Program-made: the position numbers and the translations under genes
Source of the DNA: an uncultured Oscillospiraceae bacterium
GTDB taxonomy: Bacteria; Bacillota; Clostridia; Oscillospirales; Acutalibacteraceae
Reading direction: 5' to 3'
Assembly (NCBI GenBank): GCA_948471205.1
Contig: CAOKRT010000015.1
Coordinates: 1-36,643, forward strand
Length of the DNA: 36,643 nucleotides
The notes under the pieces: model-generated
What the model was told of the DNA's origin: nothing
Seen by the model: the letters and a program-made list of their open reading frames with translations, nothing else
The model's database searches: none
Part shown: positions 30,464 through 36,512 of the stretch, piece after piece
Layout: each line of letters begins with the position of its first letter
Position numbering within the stretch: the stretch's first letter is position 1

Positions 30464-30496
30464 AAAAGAGTGAAGACCAAATATCTTCACTCTTTT
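30464..30496. terminator. Bidirectional terminator, kinase / dlt-like operon
   Basis: Perfect 13-base stem AAAAGAGTGAAGA (30464-30476) / TCTTCACTCTTTT (30484-30496), seven-base loop. It ends both the rightward sugar genes and the leftward dlt-like operon, whose last stop codon is at 30499. Confidence 0.9.
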
Positions 30497-30498
30497 TA

Positions 30499-31485
30499 TT
30501 ATTTTTCTTTTGATTTTTTTATTTTTTCACAGGTTTTCTGAAAGTGATTGTATGCCTTACCCCATTCAGCATAATTACTGTCATGCCTATGGTCTTCAAG
30601 CTTGCCTTTTTGATTGAAAAATGCACCAAGATAGCCGGTTACTTTTACAGCACCTGAATAATTAAGGTGATCTCCCTTGTCCTTTGTATCCTTGGACCAG
30701 TCAATAGGCACTTCTTTTTTTATATTCAAATCAATATATTCAAGATTCATTTCCCGGGAAAGCTCTGCAATAGCATTATGCTTTTTAAAATTCCAGTTTT
30801 TTGTGCTGGGCGTGCTTATAAATATCAGTTCTGCACCGTTTTCGCTACAAAGGCGGGCAATTTTATCAACATACGCTTTGTTTTTTTTGTGAATATTTAT
30901 TTTTTCCTTTGTAGGCTTCATATAATTAGAAAAATCCGCAGCGTCTGTTTCGGTTCCCATTCTGTAGCCCTTATCATTTTCAATGTAATTGTTTTCAACC
31001 TTAAAATGAAAATCTCTTAAAGAAATCTTTTTCCATCGGTCATGATATCTGTAAATCGAAAACCACTGATCTGCCCTTGTTAAAATTGCTGTTTTAACGG
31101 AAAATGCCCTGAAAACAGCATTTGTTTCAAGAACCACAAATTTGGGCTTCTGCTTCACAAAAGCTTTTCGCAGAAAGTCCAGGGAATAATCCAATGTCTG
31201 AGAAGGTGTTCCGCACACATAAGAGGTTATACCGTATTCATTCCACATCTGAAGCGGAATAAAAGAACTGTAGCTTTCACTGTCGCCCACTATAAGAATA
31301 TCAATCGTATTTTCCGGTTCTCCCAGAAAACCGTTTGCCGATTTATCTCGCATATCCTTATTGGTTTTAGGCATAAAAAGCTGAGAAAATCCAAAAAAGA
31401 GAATAGCAATAACAAGCACAAAAACAATAGTTTTTGATAAATTTAAAAACGTACGTTTATTGAAACGTTCGCTGAAATATCTCAT
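30499..31485 (-). CDS. SGNH-fold cell-envelope protein, DltD-like role
   Basis: 328 residues with an N-terminal membrane anchor (about residues 17-37) and an extracytoplasmic domain. GDSE at 67-70 (candidate nucleophile Ser69) and GDHLNYSG at 271-278 (Asp272, His273) give the Ser and Asp-x-x-His-like signature of SGNH hydrolases/acyltransferases that partner MBOAT proteins, as DltD and AlgX/PatB-like proteins do. The start at 31485 follows GGGAGGT and comes after the MBOAT stop; the longer frame would run into that gene. Predicted to receive an acyl or aminoacyl group and place it on a surface polymer; the acceptor is unknown. Confidence 0.75.
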   Translation of the reverse strand: MRYFSERFNKRTFLNLSKTIVFVLVIAILFFGFSQLFMPKTNKDMRDKSANGFLGEPENTIDILIVGDSESYSSFIPLQMWNEYGITSYVCGTPSQTLDYSLDFLRKAFVKQKPKFVVLETNAVFRAFSVKTAILTRADQWFSIYRYHDRWKKISLRDFHFKVENNYIENDKGYRMGTETDAADFSNYMKPTKEKINIHKKNKAYVDKIARLCSENGAELIFISTPSTKNWNFKKHNAIAELSREMNLEYIDLNIKKEVPIDWSKDTKDKGDHLNYSGAVKVTGYLGAFFNQKGKLEDHRHDSNYAEWGKAYNHFQKTCEKIKKSKEK

Positions 31486-31501
31486 TTTTCTACCTCCCCT
31501 T

Positions 31502-33142
31502 TTAGAAATTGGCATAAATCGGGTCAACCGGATCATAGCCGATTCCGTATGCGCCGAAAATAACGATAAACATGATAAGAGAAATAAACACAAGCCAGCG
31601 CAATGCCATGTTTTTTTGCTGAAGTTTTTCACGTATAACAATGCCTTTTTCATTCAGTATGCTGACAACAAATATAATAACCAGCGTTACCGCTACAATT
31701 ATTATATCTTTCAAGTCAACACCCAAGGCAGTAAGATATCCGTCCTTAAAATCAGCAAAACTGAAATCCGTAACCAATTTTTTAAACATTGCAAGCCCTG
31801 CTCTTAAACCATGCGCACGGAAAAACATTTCGCCGATTACAACAAAACCTGCTGTGCGAATAATCTGCATTGCCCTGTAAGCAAAGCATTCTGAATTTAT
31901 ATGCAGTTTTTTATTAAGATTTTTTGCAAACGGCGCAATTATGTTTCCGGACAGAATCAAAGCAAAATGATACATACCGAAGAAAATATAGCTCCATGCT
32001 GCACCGTGCCAAAGCCCGTTGCAGAACCAAACACAGAACAAAGCAACCGCACCCGCAAGAAGCGGACCGAAATGATTACCCAATTTCTTTCTTGCAGAAG
32101 TTGTTAAATTCTTCATCGGACCCGACATGGAAACAGGATAAAATATATAATCTCTGAACCAAGCGCCAAGCGTAATGTGCCAGCGCTTCCAGAATTCCGA
32201 TATGGAGCGTGAGAAAAACGGCCTTTTGAAATTTTCCGGCATTGTTATTCCGAAAATCTGTGCCGTTCCGCACACTGCATCCATTGTACCTGAAAAATCC
32301 ATATAAAGCTGAATGGTATAAGCAACAGCACCGAACGCAATGGTGGGACCGCTGCATTTTGAATAATCACTGAAAATATTTGTTATTATAGGATTAAGCC
32401 TGTCTGCAACCACAATTTTTTTCATAAGACCGTAAAGAATACGCTGCAGTCCAAGGGTAAGATTTGTATATGTAATCTGCTTTGCCTGATAAATCTGATC
32501 TGCCGTATCATTATATTTACAGATAGGACCTTCCACAATCTGCGGAAAAAAGCTGATATACAAAGCAAGTCTCAGCAGATTATTATCTGCCTTTACCGTG
32601 CCGTTATAAACATCAAATATATAGGACATTGCCTGCATTGTAAAAAAGGAAATTCCAATCGGCAGAATAAATTTCGGAATATCAAAGGCAAACTGAATGC
32701 CGATGCTTTCCAGCAGAGAATTTATATTCGTTGTAAAAAACGGCGAATATTTTAAAACAAGAAGCGTTCCTATATGCACAACAGCGGCAAGAAAAACAAC
32801 GCCGCGCTGTTTGCTCTGATAGGCTTTCCGTATTGCTTTCTTTTCGGCTCTGTCAGCGGCTGTTTTTGCCTGAGCCTTACGCATTTGTGTTAGTTTATCC
32901 AGCCACAGACCGAACCAGTGAATGGAAAATGTGGTTAACACAAGAAAAATCGCAAGTTTGCCGCTGATTATCCACACAAAAGAATAACTTGCAAACAACA
33001 GAACCCATCTTCTTGCCTTCTGCGGCATAAGCCAGTAAAGCAACACGGTTACCGGCAAAAAAACTGCCAGATATGCCAGTGAGAAATAGGAGGTAAGCTG
33101 AGCGGCACCGAATCCGCCCTTTAAGATAGAAGAAAGGTCCAC
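31502..33142 (-). CDS. MBOAT-family acyltransferase, DltB/AlgI-like
   Basis: 546-residue multi-pass membrane O-acyltransferase. The family core SEFWKRWHITLGAWFRDY (315-332) and the active-site NGLWHGAAWSYIFFGMYH with the catalytic His379 are present, with about ten or more hydrophobic segments. In the Dlt system the MBOAT protein moves the aminoacyl group from the carrier protein across the membrane. Start codon is two bases from the carrier gene's stop, so the carrier and its presumed acceptor are co-translated. There is a charged cytoplasmic loop at about residues 82-112, rich in Lys/Ala. Confidence 0.92.
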   Translation of the reverse strand: MDLSSILKGGFGAAQLTSYFSLAYLAVFLPVTVLLYWLMPQKARRWVLLFASYSFVWIISGKLAIFLVLTTFSIHWFGLWLDKLTQMRKAQAKTAADRAEKKAIRKAYQSKQRGVVFLAAVVHIGTLLVLKYSPFFTTNINSLLESIGIQFAFDIPKFILPIGISFFTMQAMSYIFDVYNGTVKADNNLLRLALYISFFPQIVEGPICKYNDTADQIYQAKQITYTNLTLGLQRILYGLMKKIVVADRLNPIITNIFSDYSKCSGPTIAFGAVAYTIQLYMDFSGTMDAVCGTAQIFGITMPENFKRPFFSRSISEFWKRWHITLGAWFRDYIFYPVSMSGPMKNLTTSARKKLGNHFGPLLAGAVALFCVWFCNGLWHGAAWSYIFFGMYHFALILSGNIIAPFAKNLNKKLHINSECFAYRAMQIIRTAGFVVIGEMFFRAHGLRAGLAMFKKLVTDFSFADFKDGYLTALGVDLKDIIIVAVTLVIIFVVSILNEKGIVIREKLQQKNMALRWLVFISLIMFIVIFGAYGIGYDPVDPIYANF

Positions 33143-33143
33143 C

Positions 33144-33374
33144 TTAGTCCTCCTCTTCCAGCCTCTTAATCATTTTATACATAGCTGCTGCAGAATTGAA
33201 GTTTGCCGGAATAATTTCCACTGCAGGAATTGTGATATCAAATTCATCTTCAATTTCTGCAACAAGCGAAATAATTGAAAGCGAATCAAGCAAATGTGCA
33301 TCAATAAGCTCTGTGCATTCTGCATAATCAATATCCGGCTGAATATCCTCTAAAATTTCAATAAGTCTTTCCAT
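33144..33374 (-). CDS. Acyl/aminoacyl carrier protein (DltC-like)
   Basis: 76 residues, acidic four-helix carrier protein. The phosphopantetheine attachment site is Ser31 in LLDSLS, followed by the usual second helix IISLVAEIEDEFDITIP. Needs a 4-phosphopantetheinyl transferase encoded elsewhere. Lies between the PLP decarboxylase and the MBOAT, suggesting it carries the activated group between the adenylation enzyme and the membrane. Could be annotated DltC by position, but its cargo is unproved. Confidence 0.9.
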   Translation of the reverse strand: MERLIEILEDIQPDIDYAECTELIDAHLLDSLSIISLVAEIEDEFDITIPAVEIIPANFNSAAAMYKMIKRLEEED

Positions 33375-33376
33375 AA

Positions 33377-34564
33377 TTAAATATTCCTTTCATAAACAGG
33401 GGTATTAAGCTGTGCTGTTTCAAATGTTCTGCGAACCCTTACGGCGTTTTCATTTTCGTCAATAAGATAAACCGCAGGAATATCTCTTGTTAAAAACAGA
33501 GATATACATTCTATCATACAGTAAGCACCCGTATTTTCAAAAATAAGTATATCGCCTATTTCAACAGGCGGAAGGCTCACATATTTTGCTATAATATCGT
33601 TCATGGAGCAAAGCGAGCCGCATATATTCCATTCTGCCGCAGAAGGTTCATTTTCCTTTCCTGCCACAGTAAGTACAGGCTGTTTCATTGCCATATGCTG
33701 ACCGAAATAAACAATATGGTGCATTCCGCCGTCGCACAGCAGATAGCCAACATTTTTATTTATTTTCTTGTCAACAATATGTGTGTAATATTTTCCGCAG
33801 GATGCCGCAATGGATCTGCCAAGTTCCAGGGTAATTTTCGGCTTGTTTTCCATAGACTGTATGATTTGTGAAAATCCGTTCAGCAAAGCGTCTTCATCCA
33901 GCTTTTCATCTTCGAAATACGATACCGGAAATCCGGTGCCGTATTCAAGTTCATCTGCTTCATATCCTAAATCTTCTTTAAGATGTGTAAGAAATGAATC
34001 CAGCTTTTCAAGCTCTCGCCTGAATTTTTTAATTGAGGTTTTCTGTGTGCCGGAAAAATACTGAATTCCGAGAATATCAATATTTTTCTTTAAGTTTTTA
34101 TTTAAAATAATCGTATCTATATCTGTTTTATTAATTCCGAACTGACTGCCGTTTGTAAGGCGCAGCAGCAGCGGAATTTTTTTATTATATATTTCGCTTA
34201 ACCTGCACAGCAAATCATACTGCACAAGAGATTCAACTGTAAAAATACCTCTAAATTCATTATCCCGAACAAGAGTTTCAATAAATTCCGGCGTTTTATA
34301 AACACCTGAAATAACAATCTTTTCCGTGGAAATATTCAATGCTCTGCAAACTTCATATTCTCCCGGAGAACAAACTTCAAGCCTTTCAACACAATTCTCA
34401 ATCTCTTTTATAATAAAAGTATTCGCCTTAACCGCATAGCAGATTGATATGCTTTCCGGCAGATTATTTTTAAGATAAGCCACACGTTTTTTCAGAACAC
34501 CTGTATCAAAGGTATAAAAGGCAGTTCGGTTTTCGGCAATTAATTTTTTCTCGTATTCTTTCAT
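33377..34564 (-). CDS. Fold-III PLP-dependent decarboxylase, BtrK/exosortase-associated-like
   Basis: 395 residues, alanine-racemase-like barrel plus beta domain, of the DapDC/ornithine decarboxylase superfamily. Lys46 in CYAVKANT should hold PLP; CGSLC (315-319) has the general-acid Cys; GAY is at 346-348. Two motifs depart from ordinary diaminopimelate decarboxylase: ELGR (247-250) instead of EPGR, and DGGMHH (278-283). To my recollection these are typical of decarboxylases that work with an AMP-ligase and carrier protein, such as BtrK of butirosin synthesis, which decarboxylates glutamate on its carrier, and the exosortase-associated type. Placement between the ligase and the carrier fits that. 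Free lysine, ornithine or diaminopimelate remain alternative substrates. Start overlaps the ligase stop (ATGA). Confidence 0.85.
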   Translation of the reverse strand: MKEYEKKLIAENRTAFYTFDTGVLKKRVAYLKNNLPESISICYAVKANTFIIKEIENCVERLEVCSPGEYEVCRALNISTEKIVISGVYKTPEFIETLVRDNEFRGIFTVESLVQYDLLCRLSEIYNKKIPLLLRLTNGSQFGINKTDIDTIILNKNLKKNIDILGIQYFSGTQKTSIKKFRRELEKLDSFLTHLKEDLGYEADELEYGTGFPVSYFEDEKLDEDALLNGFSQIIQSMENKPKITLELGRSIAASCGKYYTHIVDKKINKNVGYLLCDGGMHHIVYFGQHMAMKQPVLTVAGKENEPSAAEWNICGSLCSMNDIIAKYVSLPPVEIGDILIFENTGAYCMIECISLFLTRDIPAVYLIDENENAVRVRRTFETAQLNTPVYERNI

Positions 34565-36078
34565 TGCTTTTTTGCCACCTCTGCTTCCTGAAGCTTCTTT
34601 CTGTCTACCTTTCCGTTTTTGGTCAGGGGCATGGCTTCAACCTGTCTAAGTATTCCCGGCACCATAAAAACAGGCAGTGTGCTTTTCATTACGGAATGAA
34701 GCTGTGCCCTGTCAATCGTACCGACATAATAGCCTTTCAGCTTAGACCTTTTTTCGTCAAATATACATACACAGCGCTCCACACCGTCAATCGCAGCCAT
34801 TTCATGCTCGATTTCCTCCAGTTCAATTCTGTGACCCATATATTTTATCTGAAAGTCCTTGCGGCCGCTGAAAACAAATTCGCCGTTTTCATTATATGTG
34901 CCAAGATCACCGGTTCTGTAAATCACATCAGGGTAAAAGCTGTTTAACGGATTCTGTACAAAATGCTTTGCCGTCTGCTCCGGCGAAGAATAATATCCAA
35001 GAGCAAGCGCCGTTCCCCGCACACAGATTTCACCGGCTCTGCCGCTTTCACAAACCAATTCATTGTTATCATCAAGCAGAAATACATCTTCATTGTCAAA
35101 CGGCTTTCCGATTGGAATTCCGCCGGAATAATCACGGTCCTTATCAAGAATATGATATGTACAGTTACAGGTTATTTCTGTTGGTCCGTAAAGATTTACA
35201 AACATTGTCTCAGGCAGATGGCTTTGCCAGTTTATAAGATGCTTATACGGCATTACCTCTCCGCTGAACAGTATTTTTCTGACTGTTTCAGGCGTTTTAT
35301 AATCAAGTCCGTGCAGTGTACTTATAAGGCAAAGTGCCGATACAGCCCAAATCATAACTGTAATTTTGTTTTCACATAAATAATCAAGCAATTCAACCGG
35401 GGCCGAAAAAAGCCTTCTCGGAACGATAACAAGATGCGCACCTGTTTTAAGCGACGAATAAATATCCTTTACTGAAACATCAAAATCAAACGGCGCCTGA
35501 TTTGCAAGAATATCATTATTTGTTATATCAAAGGTTTTGGTAAATACTTCAATAAAATCAATTACACTTCTGTGGCATACGGCTATACCTTTCGGAATAC
35601 CTGTGGAACCGGATGTGAAATTTGCATACAGCGGATCTGTATCTATCTGCTTTTTTCTTATTTCCGACAGTTTATCACTGTTGATTTCAGAAAGCACTGC
35701 CTCTTCGGCAAAAATAAGTTTGCAATCGAAATCCGCCTTCTGAATCTTTTCACAATGCGCTTTGTCCGTTACCACTGCGCAGGGATTCAGCGTTTCAAAA
35801 ATTTTGTTAATTCGTTCAAGCGGCATTTCAAGATCAACAACAACATAAAAATTGCCGCTGTAAACCGCACCGAACATTACCGCCAGCAAATCAACATCTT
35901 TTTCAAGATAAATAGCCACCGGTCTGTTTTTTGCATGGATGGAAGCAAGCGCCGAGCCGATTCTCTGCGATATATCTAAAAGTTCTTTATATGTATATTT
36001 TTTATCAAAATCAGAAACAGCGGTTTTATCTGCAAAAAGCTTTGCATTGCATTCCAGATATTCAAGCACATTCTTCAT
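34561..36078 (-). CDS. Stand-alone amino acid adenylation enzyme, DltA-like
   Basis: 505-residue ANL-family ligase predicted to adenylate an amino acid and load it on the carrier protein. Motifs: P-loop TSGSTGIPKG (155-164), PFDFDVSVKD with amine-binding Asp200, NLYGPTE (295-301), YRTGD (387-391), hinge GRKDFQIKYMG and catalytic Lys490 in LTKNGKVDRK. The overall pattern is closest to DltA, but by eye the Cys that selects D-alanine in DltA is not at the aligned position, so another amino acid may be used. Start at 36078 chosen for AGGTG seven bases upstream; the longer frame would start at 36150, upstream of the -10 element. Confidence 0.9.
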   Translation of the reverse strand: MKNVLEYLECNAKLFADKTAVSDFDKKYTYKELLDISQRIGSALASIHAKNRPVAIYLEKDVDLLAVMFGAVYSGNFYVVVDLEMPLERINKIFETLNPCAVVTDKAHCEKIQKADFDCKLIFAEEAVLSEINSDKLSEIRKKQIDTDPLYANFTSGSTGIPKGIAVCHRSVIDFIEVFTKTFDITNNDILANQAPFDFDVSVKDIYSSLKTGAHLVIVPRRLFSAPVELLDYLCENKITVMIWAVSALCLISTLHGLDYKTPETVRKILFSGEVMPYKHLINWQSHLPETMFVNLYGPTEITCNCTYHILDKDRDYSGGIPIGKPFDNEDVFLLDDNNELVCESGRAGEICVRGTALALGYYSSPEQTAKHFVQNPLNSFYPDVIYRTGDLGTYNENGEFVFSGRKDFQIKYMGHRIELEEIEHEMAAIDGVERCVCIFDEKRSKLKGYYVGTIDRAQLHSVMKSTLPVFMVPGILRQVEAMPLTKNGKVDRKKLQEAEVAKKQ

Positions 36079-36138
36079 AAAATTACACCTGCCAACTTTT
36101 GCTGCAACTGTATCATCACTTACAATACAGTTTTTTAA

Positions 36139-36167
36139 ATCATATAACACCCTGCATAATTTGTCAA
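36139..36167 (-). promoter_or_regulatory. Promoter of the dlt-like operon
   Basis: On the minus strand TTGACA (36162-36167) and TATGAT (36139-36144) with a 17-base spacer, giving a transcript start near 36132, about 54 bases before the ligase ATG at 36078. This supports the shorter ligase start, since the 36150 start would lie within the promoter. Confidence 0.75.
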
Positions 36168-36243: not shown

Positions 36244-36260
36244 TGTTACATAATGTAACA
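36244..36260. promoter_or_regulatory. Regulator palindrome 1 upstream of the XRE gene
   Basis: TGTTACATAATGTAACA, a perfect 17-base palindrome around a central A. It shares GTAACA/TGTTAC half-sites with the next palindrome 25 bases away (centre to centre) but in inverted order. Likely bound by a dimer of the XRE protein encoded just downstream. Confidence 0.65.
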
Positions 36261-36266
36261 ATTTAT

Positions 36267-36287
36267 ATTGTAACAAACTGTTACAAT
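36267..36287. promoter_or_regulatory. Regulator palindrome 2 upstream of the XRE gene
   Basis: Arms ATTGTAACA and TGTTACAAT are perfect inverted repeats around AAC. It ends seven bases before the ribosome site AAGGAG (36294-36299) of the XRE gene, so binding here would block its transcription, and the paired sites lie in the region shared with the divergent dlt-like operon. Confidence 0.65.
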
Positions 36288-36308: not shown

Positions 36309-36512
36309 TTGAAAGGTTTAAAATTAATCAGAAAAGAGCGCAATCTGAATCAGCAAAAAGTTGCCCTGGACCTGAATATCAGCCGGGAGGCTTTGTCTCA
36401 TTACGAAAACGGAAAAAGAGAACCTTCTTTGGATATGCTTGTAAAAATGTCTGATTATTTTAATGTTTCCATTGACTTTCTGATTACCGGAAAAGAATTT
36501 ATAAAAAGGTAA
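36309..36512 (+). CDS. Small XRE/Cro-type transcriptional regulator
   Basis: 67 residues, almost only a helix-turn-helix domain: LRKERN-type first helix, then QQKVALDLNISREALSHYENGKREPS covering the DNA-reading helices, and MLVKMSDYFNVSIDFLIT. It starts with TTG at 36309, supported by AAGGAG nine bases upstream. No ligand or protease domain is attached. The two palindromes upstream suggest autoregulation; control of the divergent dlt-like operon is inferred from the shared intergenic region. Confidence 0.9.
   Translation: MKGLKLIRKERNLNQQKVALDLNISREALSHYENGKREPSLDMLVKMSDYFNVSIDFLITGKEFIKR

Follow-up and report, generated by a model that had tools for sequence, protein, structure and literature searches.

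A conserved five-gene cassette of gut Clostridia that may decarboxylate an amino acid on its carrier and export the product to the cell surface

What is a pyridoxal phosphate (PLP) decarboxylase doing inside an operon that otherwise resembles dlt, the D-alanylation system? The question is raised by contig CAOKRT010000015.1 (assembly GCA_948471205.1) of an uncultured Oscillospiraceae bacterium, whose 36,643 nucleotides (nts) are hereafter the window. Its minus strand carries, at 30499–36078, one five-gene unit encoding an adenylation enzyme, a fold-III PLP decarboxylase, a carrier protein, a membrane-bound O-acyltransferase (MBOAT) and an SGNH protein. The junctions measure −4, 2, 1 and 16 nts, in that order, bearing out the single tight operon called by a first-pass annotation of the same DNA. 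The answer proposed here, which we consider probable on balance, is that an amino acid would be loaded onto the carrier, decarboxylated there, and exported to a surface polymer.

The five-gene set, which the first-pass annotation had put forward for a neighborhood survey, is a conserved cassette. In a scan of named genomes, tblastn at E ≤1e-3 confirmed at least 567 of 595 stretches as relatives; since the threshold was only this strict, some of the 567 may hold other decarboxylases. Among the best 80 loci, 76 contain all five genes, 74 in the window's order, and 75 are tightly packed (≤300 nts between neighbors). Taxa represented in these 80 include Ruminococcus bromii ATCC 27255, Agathobaculum, Catenibacillus scindens, Faecalicoccus pleomorphus and Enorma massiliensis, such that the cassette ranges from R. 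bromii to Erysipelotrichaceae and one coriobacterium. The exceptions are L100, L116 and L125, which are short of genes near contig ends, and L107, which has no SGNH match. Variant arrangements comprise an upstream SGNH gene (L115), an additional MBOAT–SGNH pair ahead of the carrier (L135), and loose spacing with an MBOAT split in two pieces (L140). The divergent loci L071 and L072 have the same five genes in the altered order ligase–carrier–decarboxylase–MBOAT–SGNH, while the distant L074 holds ligase, decarboxylase and carrier with no MBOAT adjoining. A close decarboxylase homologue (E <1e-100) is present in 6 of 40 relatives, in which the best LysA-type match is far weaker (2.9e-23). Counting the window's own genome each time, homologues occur in 17 of 394 genomes of the order (E ≤1e-40) and in 4 of 398 genomes of a phylum-wide draw (E ≤1e-35).

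The ligase (34561–36078, minus strand, 505 amino acids [aa]) is a standalone amino-acid adenylation enzyme with the pocket code DVKSLSLCNK. The pocket was read at the ten PheA code positions, mapped by motif on our own alignment, for 99 ligases, which reduce to 91 distinct ones when sequences identical over the last 400 residues are collapsed. Ligases of ≤430 aa (L087, L104, L137) and the cut copy of L031 were left out; in L086 the operon's own ligase was counted and a second, unrelated 446-aa ligase open reading frame excluded. The full code recurs in 80 of the 91 distinct decarboxylase-linked ligases, and nine more deviate at one or two positions. Position 239, which corresponds to residue 204 of the window's ligase, is basic throughout (Lys in 89, Arg in 2), Asp235 and Val236 are each present in 89, and Ser301 in all 91. 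The ligases of L071 and L072 read IARxCSQASK, with Arg239 and no Asp235, and may have another substrate or binding mode. Ser301 occupies the position of the D-Ala-selecting Cys of DltA, which is Cys in 10/10 DltA-like controls; the earlier impression that this Cys is not conserved was thus correct. Neither Asn331 nor Ser301 is found in any of 29 ligases from cassettes devoid of a decarboxylase, a selection from matches in 116 genomes and not a census. The glutamate code, DAKDLGVVDK, is the basis for linking Lys239 to an acidic substrate. The strict retention of a basic residue at this position suggests a dicarboxylic substrate, one that probably retains a carboxylate at loading, which argues that decarboxylation comes after loading. 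The pocket also agrees at 236, 299, 301 and 322 with the serine code DVWHLSLVDK, as given in the accessible part of one source (PMC12283262); this hints at a short side chain and weakly favors aspartate over glutamate. According to the available portion of a review (PMC11253843), ligases of the VinN type, which act on β-amino acids, are recognizable by a shortened loop and by residues at 236 and 301 that are bulkier, with F231/S299 in VinN and V236 in an evolved TycA; excerpts of PMC9484153 are a further source for the VinN structure. The operon ligases share the bulkier residues at both positions, with Val in place of the Phe of VinN at 236.

By family, the ligase is an adenylation enzyme, as the first-pass annotation had it, although its DltA-like label fits less well: it reaches 282 bits against the DltA model TIGR01734 (cut-off 560) and scores higher as a general amino-acid adenylation domain. 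The DltA-like proteins of the order, at 470–503 bits, likewise fall below that cut-off. They occur in 15 of the 394 genomes and the decarboxylase in 17, with zero overlap, and the best scored ligase of those 17 reaches at most 304 bits against the DltA model. A mutual exclusion of cassette and canonical DltA was considered and dropped, the zero overlap being uninformative when 0.65 shared genomes are expected by chance. In a 69-row ligase tree built by a quick method, 26 of 28 sampled decarboxylase-linked rows form one clade (Shimodaira–Hasegawa-like approximate likelihood-ratio support 99), so that the common pocket code partly reflects shared descent; the L071 and L072 ligases fall apart from the others, and the DltA-like rows make up their own clade.

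The decarboxylase (33377–34564, minus strand, 395 aa) is an alanine-racemase-fold PLP enzyme with PLP-binding Lys46, a catalytic Cys319 followed by Ser, and an FLTR motif. Fold-III decarboxylases take off the carboxyl adjacent to a free amine. A LysA identity was discarded on the strength of score, motifs and the 79-protein tree described below. The LysA-type rows used for comparison combine three annotated lysA genes with the matches that scored best outside the operon in 24 relatives. All 27 have Glu after the catalytic Cys and a YN motif, both missing from 42/42 operon decarboxylases, in which the residue after the Cys is Thr (32/42) or Ser (10/42) and the motif is FL[ST]R in 41, with LLSR in L095. 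Rows associated with a ligase or carrier, BtrK included, have Cys-Thr and FL in 9/9. The Glu presumably binds the distal amine in diaminopimelate (DAP) decarboxylase, and its absence would suit a substrate whose distal end bears no free amine. The window's enzyme reaches 146 bits with the lysA model TIGR01048 (cut-off 298) and 162 with TIGR03099 (cut-off 478), an order reversed in all 7 LysA-type controls scanned, which score 137–179 bits with TIGR03099 and higher with lysA. Given those control values, the TIGR03099 score by itself was dropped as evidence. Three of the seven controls pass the lysA cut-off; the other four, from the same genus, reach 223–237 of 298 bits on partial stretches, with lysA as their best model. 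The host genome has a second, LysA-type decarboxylase match, at G000:C8.

Phylogeny places the operon decarboxylases in a single clade (100/100) in a 79-protein tree, the LysA-type rows lying together across a 100/99 branch. Nearest to the operon clade lie a long-branched SbnH-like enzyme and, with weak support (93/75), the TIGR03099 rows. A 40-row tree without the long SbnH-like branch returns the same two groups (100/100 and 100/99). Both trees are subsets whose rows include no ornithine decarboxylase, VinO or FlvO. A grouping with decarboxylases of free DAP, which would have undercut the first-pass proposal, is not seen, ornithine decarboxylases having been compared by profile and fold only. 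Searched against solved structures, the operon profile finds BtrK best (160.7 bits), ahead of SbnH (149.6), DAP decarboxylases (≤140.5) and human ornithine decarboxylase (near 60). BtrK and the window's enzyme share ~22–23 percent identity. Fold comparison was of no use for choosing BtrK over LysA, as BtrK and a DAP decarboxylase tied. The first-pass assignment to a BtrK/exosortase type therefore stands insofar as the enzyme lies outside LysA, has BtrK as its best solved relative and carries Cys-Ser/Thr in 42/42; the identity of its nearest non-LysA relative is less firm, as taken up below. A related decarboxylase occurs on Streptomyces plasmids (L226:5938–9881, L236:3938–8022), with an AMP-ligase, a phosphopantetheine-binding protein and a holo-acyl carrier protein synthase, beside ectoine genes.

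The remaining three genes constitute the carrier and the transfer side. Their counts, 99 for carrier and MBOAT and 101 for SGNH, are uncollapsed, with some contigs entering twice and tandem SGNH copies included. The carrier (33144–33374, minus strand, 76 aa) retains its phosphopantetheine Ser31 in 99/99 and scores 33 bits against the DltC model, below the cut-off of 68. In the MBOAT (31502–33142, minus strand, 546 aa), His322, His379 and Tyr543 are each kept in 99/99, the Tyr belonging to a C-terminal PIYANF motif. The protein thereby has the catalytic His and C-terminal FXYXXF-type hexapeptide of PatA-type enzymes, with Pro in place of Phe at the first position in 95/99 and Phe (95) or Tyr (4) at the last. 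Against the DltB model TIGR04091 it reaches 160 bits (cut-off 375), and DltB has no such hexapeptide. A related hexapeptide is present in 19/19 MBOATs of ≥500 aa from sister cassettes; it is missing from the four short MBOATs of the sister loci L192, L193, L194 and L201, and from all six MBOATs beside DltA-like ligases. Because the hexapeptide accompanies the long sister MBOATs and not those beside DltA-like ligases, the chassis, judged from its sequences, is Dlt-like on the side of supply and Pat-like on that of transfer. The SGNH protein (30499–31485, minus strand, 328 aa) has an N-terminal membrane helix, and its Ser69 (in GDSES), His273 and Asn275 are kept in 101/101. Fold, block I Ser and block V His place it in the SGNH hydrolase superfamily; it matches no DltD model, and a profile search of the PDB gave no credible relative by sequence. 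The earlier suggestion that this pair mirrors dltB and dltD needs amending in view of the MBOAT's PatA-type shuttle motif and an SGNH protein without a DltD match. Tandem SGNH genes (two to four) lie 3′ of the MBOAT in L121:11007–14996, L032:9386–11565 and L034:12569–14538, perhaps for different acceptors. The host genome has six PF04464 and two PF00884 matches, families that we take to include teichoic-acid polymerases, which makes a teichoic-acid-type acceptor plausible.

From the observed gene set, its conservation, the catalytic residues, the decarboxylase motifs and the pocket code, we infer every chemical step of the following pathway, along with its substrate and acceptor. An acidic amino acid, with L-aspartate the likeliest and glutamate the alternative, would be activated by the adenylation enzyme at its side-chain carboxyl and loaded onto the carrier. 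The decarboxylase would then strip the free α-carboxyl, yielding a β-alanyl-carrier (or 4-aminobutyryl-carrier). Next, the acyl group would cross the membrane by way of the MBOAT, ending up on the Tyr in that enzyme's C-terminal hexapeptide. The SGNH protein would take it over on its Ser and esterify a surface polymer, perhaps of the teichoic-acid type, at a hydroxyl. Compared with D-alanine, the decoration would present its primary amine on a longer spacer. Decarboxylation on the carrier implies that another carboxyl must form the thioester, as in VinN/VinL/VinO and BtrK. In the former, a tested load-then-decarboxylate precedent, thioester formation is needed before decarboxylation (PMC11284099, as excerpted); BtrK, according to the accessible part of PMC7857480, converts glutamyl-BtrI to the 4-aminobutyryl-carrier. 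The pathway predicts that the Asp- or Glu-loaded carrier becomes lighter by 44 Da.

Several observations weigh against this reading. Lys239 also occurs in 16 of the 29 ligases from decarboxylase-free cassettes, and was dropped as a hallmark of the decarboxylase cassettes for that reason. The β13–β14 loop is not one residue shorter in our alignment, its length being that of most sister and DltA-like ligases. In the 40-row tree, the approximately unbiased test fails to reject a grouping of the operon enzymes with the LysA-type rather than the carrier-associated rows (p 0.125). Moreover, the SbnH-like enzyme, named for its siderophore-cluster context, shares the Cys-Ser/Thr-type and FL motifs, so that these motifs mark a substrate with another tail, not a carrier as such. 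SbnH itself works on a free substrate (PMC7857480, in part), the sequence of steps cannot be read from the arrangement of the genes, and the ligase loop differs from that of VinN, all of which would suit a scheme in which the decarboxylase acts first on the free amino acid (Asp to β-alanine, or Glu to γ-aminobutyrate) and the ligase loads the finished ω-amino acid, leading to the same surface product. We nonetheless regard this scheme as unlikely, since the basic residue at 239, kept in 91/91 ligases, would be needless for a product without a second carboxylate, and since VinN refuses the decarboxylated product (excerpts of PMC11284099).

A more distant variant has the ligase load an α-carboxyl of a substrate with amino-acid groups at both ends, such as diaminopimelate, and the decarboxylase act on the other end once it is on the carrier, to give for instance a lysyl-carrier and a lysyl decoration. 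Asp235 (89/91) and the normal-length loop do resemble α-amino-acid ligases, and DAP decarboxylase has the same fold as the cassette's enzyme; yet the loss of LysA's Glu and YN from every operon enzyme, along with the four positions shared with the small serine code (PMC12283262, in part), speaks against a DAP-like substrate and renders this variant improbable. We see an equally slim chance that the product is a small secreted or lipid-bound molecule and not a polymer decoration. The operon holds no polymer gene, VinN-type modules start antibiotics, and L074 has the first three genes with no adjoining MBOAT, but MBOAT and SGNH accompany the other three genes in 76/80 named loci, and the two form a pair known for polymer acylation (PMC12148441, accessible part).

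With loading, on-carrier decarboxylation and export thus preferred, how does the cassette relate to characterized systems? With Dlt (DltA, DltC, DltB, DltD, DltX) it has in common a single operon that combines ligase, MBOAT and SGNH protein with a standalone carrier and, presumably, a carrier thioester as donor. It differs in the additional decarboxylase, the pocket Ser instead of Cys, an MBOAT that is longer and ends in a Tyr hexapeptide, and an SGNH protein outside the DltD models; a canonical dlt was rejected on model scores and ligase pocket. VinN/VinL/VinO and FlvN/FlvO, which provide β-amino acid starters of macrolactams, likewise pair a standalone carrier with an AMP-forming ligase and a PLP decarboxylase, but they feed a polyketide synthase where the cassette continues with MBOAT and SGNH; the shortened loop of VinN-type ligases also sets them apart. 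BtrI/BtrK of butirosin offers the best solved decarboxylase relative, although its product goes into an antibiotic. BtrJ, the partner of BtrK, is an ATP-grasp ligase and not the AMP-ligase that the first-pass annotation had assumed, making VinN/VinL/VinO the nearer chemical precedent. In the exosortase A-associated TIGR03098/TIGR03099 pair, AMP-ligase and decarboxylase genes adjoin (S. meliloti L225, Aureimonas L232); the cassette proteins fall far below both cut-offs, and unlike the cassette, L225 and L232 have no MBOAT or SGNH named among their annotated neighbors. PatA/PatB shares the SGNH fold and the MBOAT shuttle hexapeptide (FIYANF in N. gonorrhoeae PatA), but PatA takes acetyl-CoA, while the cassette's group seems supplied by ligase and carrier.

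Sister cassettes lacking the decarboxylase extend this picture. Three of them (L191, L195, L196) have, in the decarboxylase's slot between ligase and carrier, a 258-aa gene (L191:5406–6182, minus; L195:5140–5916, minus; L196:5900–6676, plus) that Pfam, scanned for L191 and L196, identifies in both as a GNAT acetyltransferase; the ligase code in all three is DLKS[AI]G[MV]VDK. Tentatively, and with slightly less than even confidence, the cassettes may be read as a gut Clostridia family of swappable surface-decoration systems, in which a ligase/carrier/MBOAT/SGNH chassis with a PatA-like shuttle receives a tailoring enzyme slotted beside ligase and carrier: here a decarboxylase, by which a surface polymer would gain β-alanyl (or 4-aminobutyryl) esters, and in other cassettes a GNAT or none. 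L192 and L193, which belong to the short-MBOAT cassettes, are the only ligases with a shorter loop in our alignment; the loop after GPTE is one residue shorter and Val236 is present, matching the description of VinN, and their substrate may be a β-amino acid.

Each module is known, and the combination appears undescribed: a literature search, with most subscription journals and all preprints outside it, gave no listed paper whose title or opening abstract describes the five-gene set, and one passage of PMC9431564 has no mention of dlt. New relative to the known modules are their joining in one cassette, the way this set extends across gut Clostridia, and a slot whose enzyme seems to be exchanged. 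Resistance to host peptides is shaped by the charge of surface polymers, as are autolysis and immune recognition; this is established for D-alanylation. If the proposal is right, gut species with a decarboxylase cassette, R. bromii among them, would do the same job by different chemistry, which would tie antibiotic-type load-then-decarboxylate chemistry to MBOAT–SGNH export.

The operon is flanked by a promoter-like TTGACA-17-TATGAT (36139–36167, minus strand) and, directly 3′ of the SGNH gene, a terminator-like hairpin (30464–30496, minus strand) that is seen on both strands. Positions 36244–36285 and 36309–36512 cover two TGTTACA/TGTAACA palindromes, a possible operator, and a small divergent helix-turn-helix gene, XRE-like by eye; the palindromes lie between that gene and the operon.

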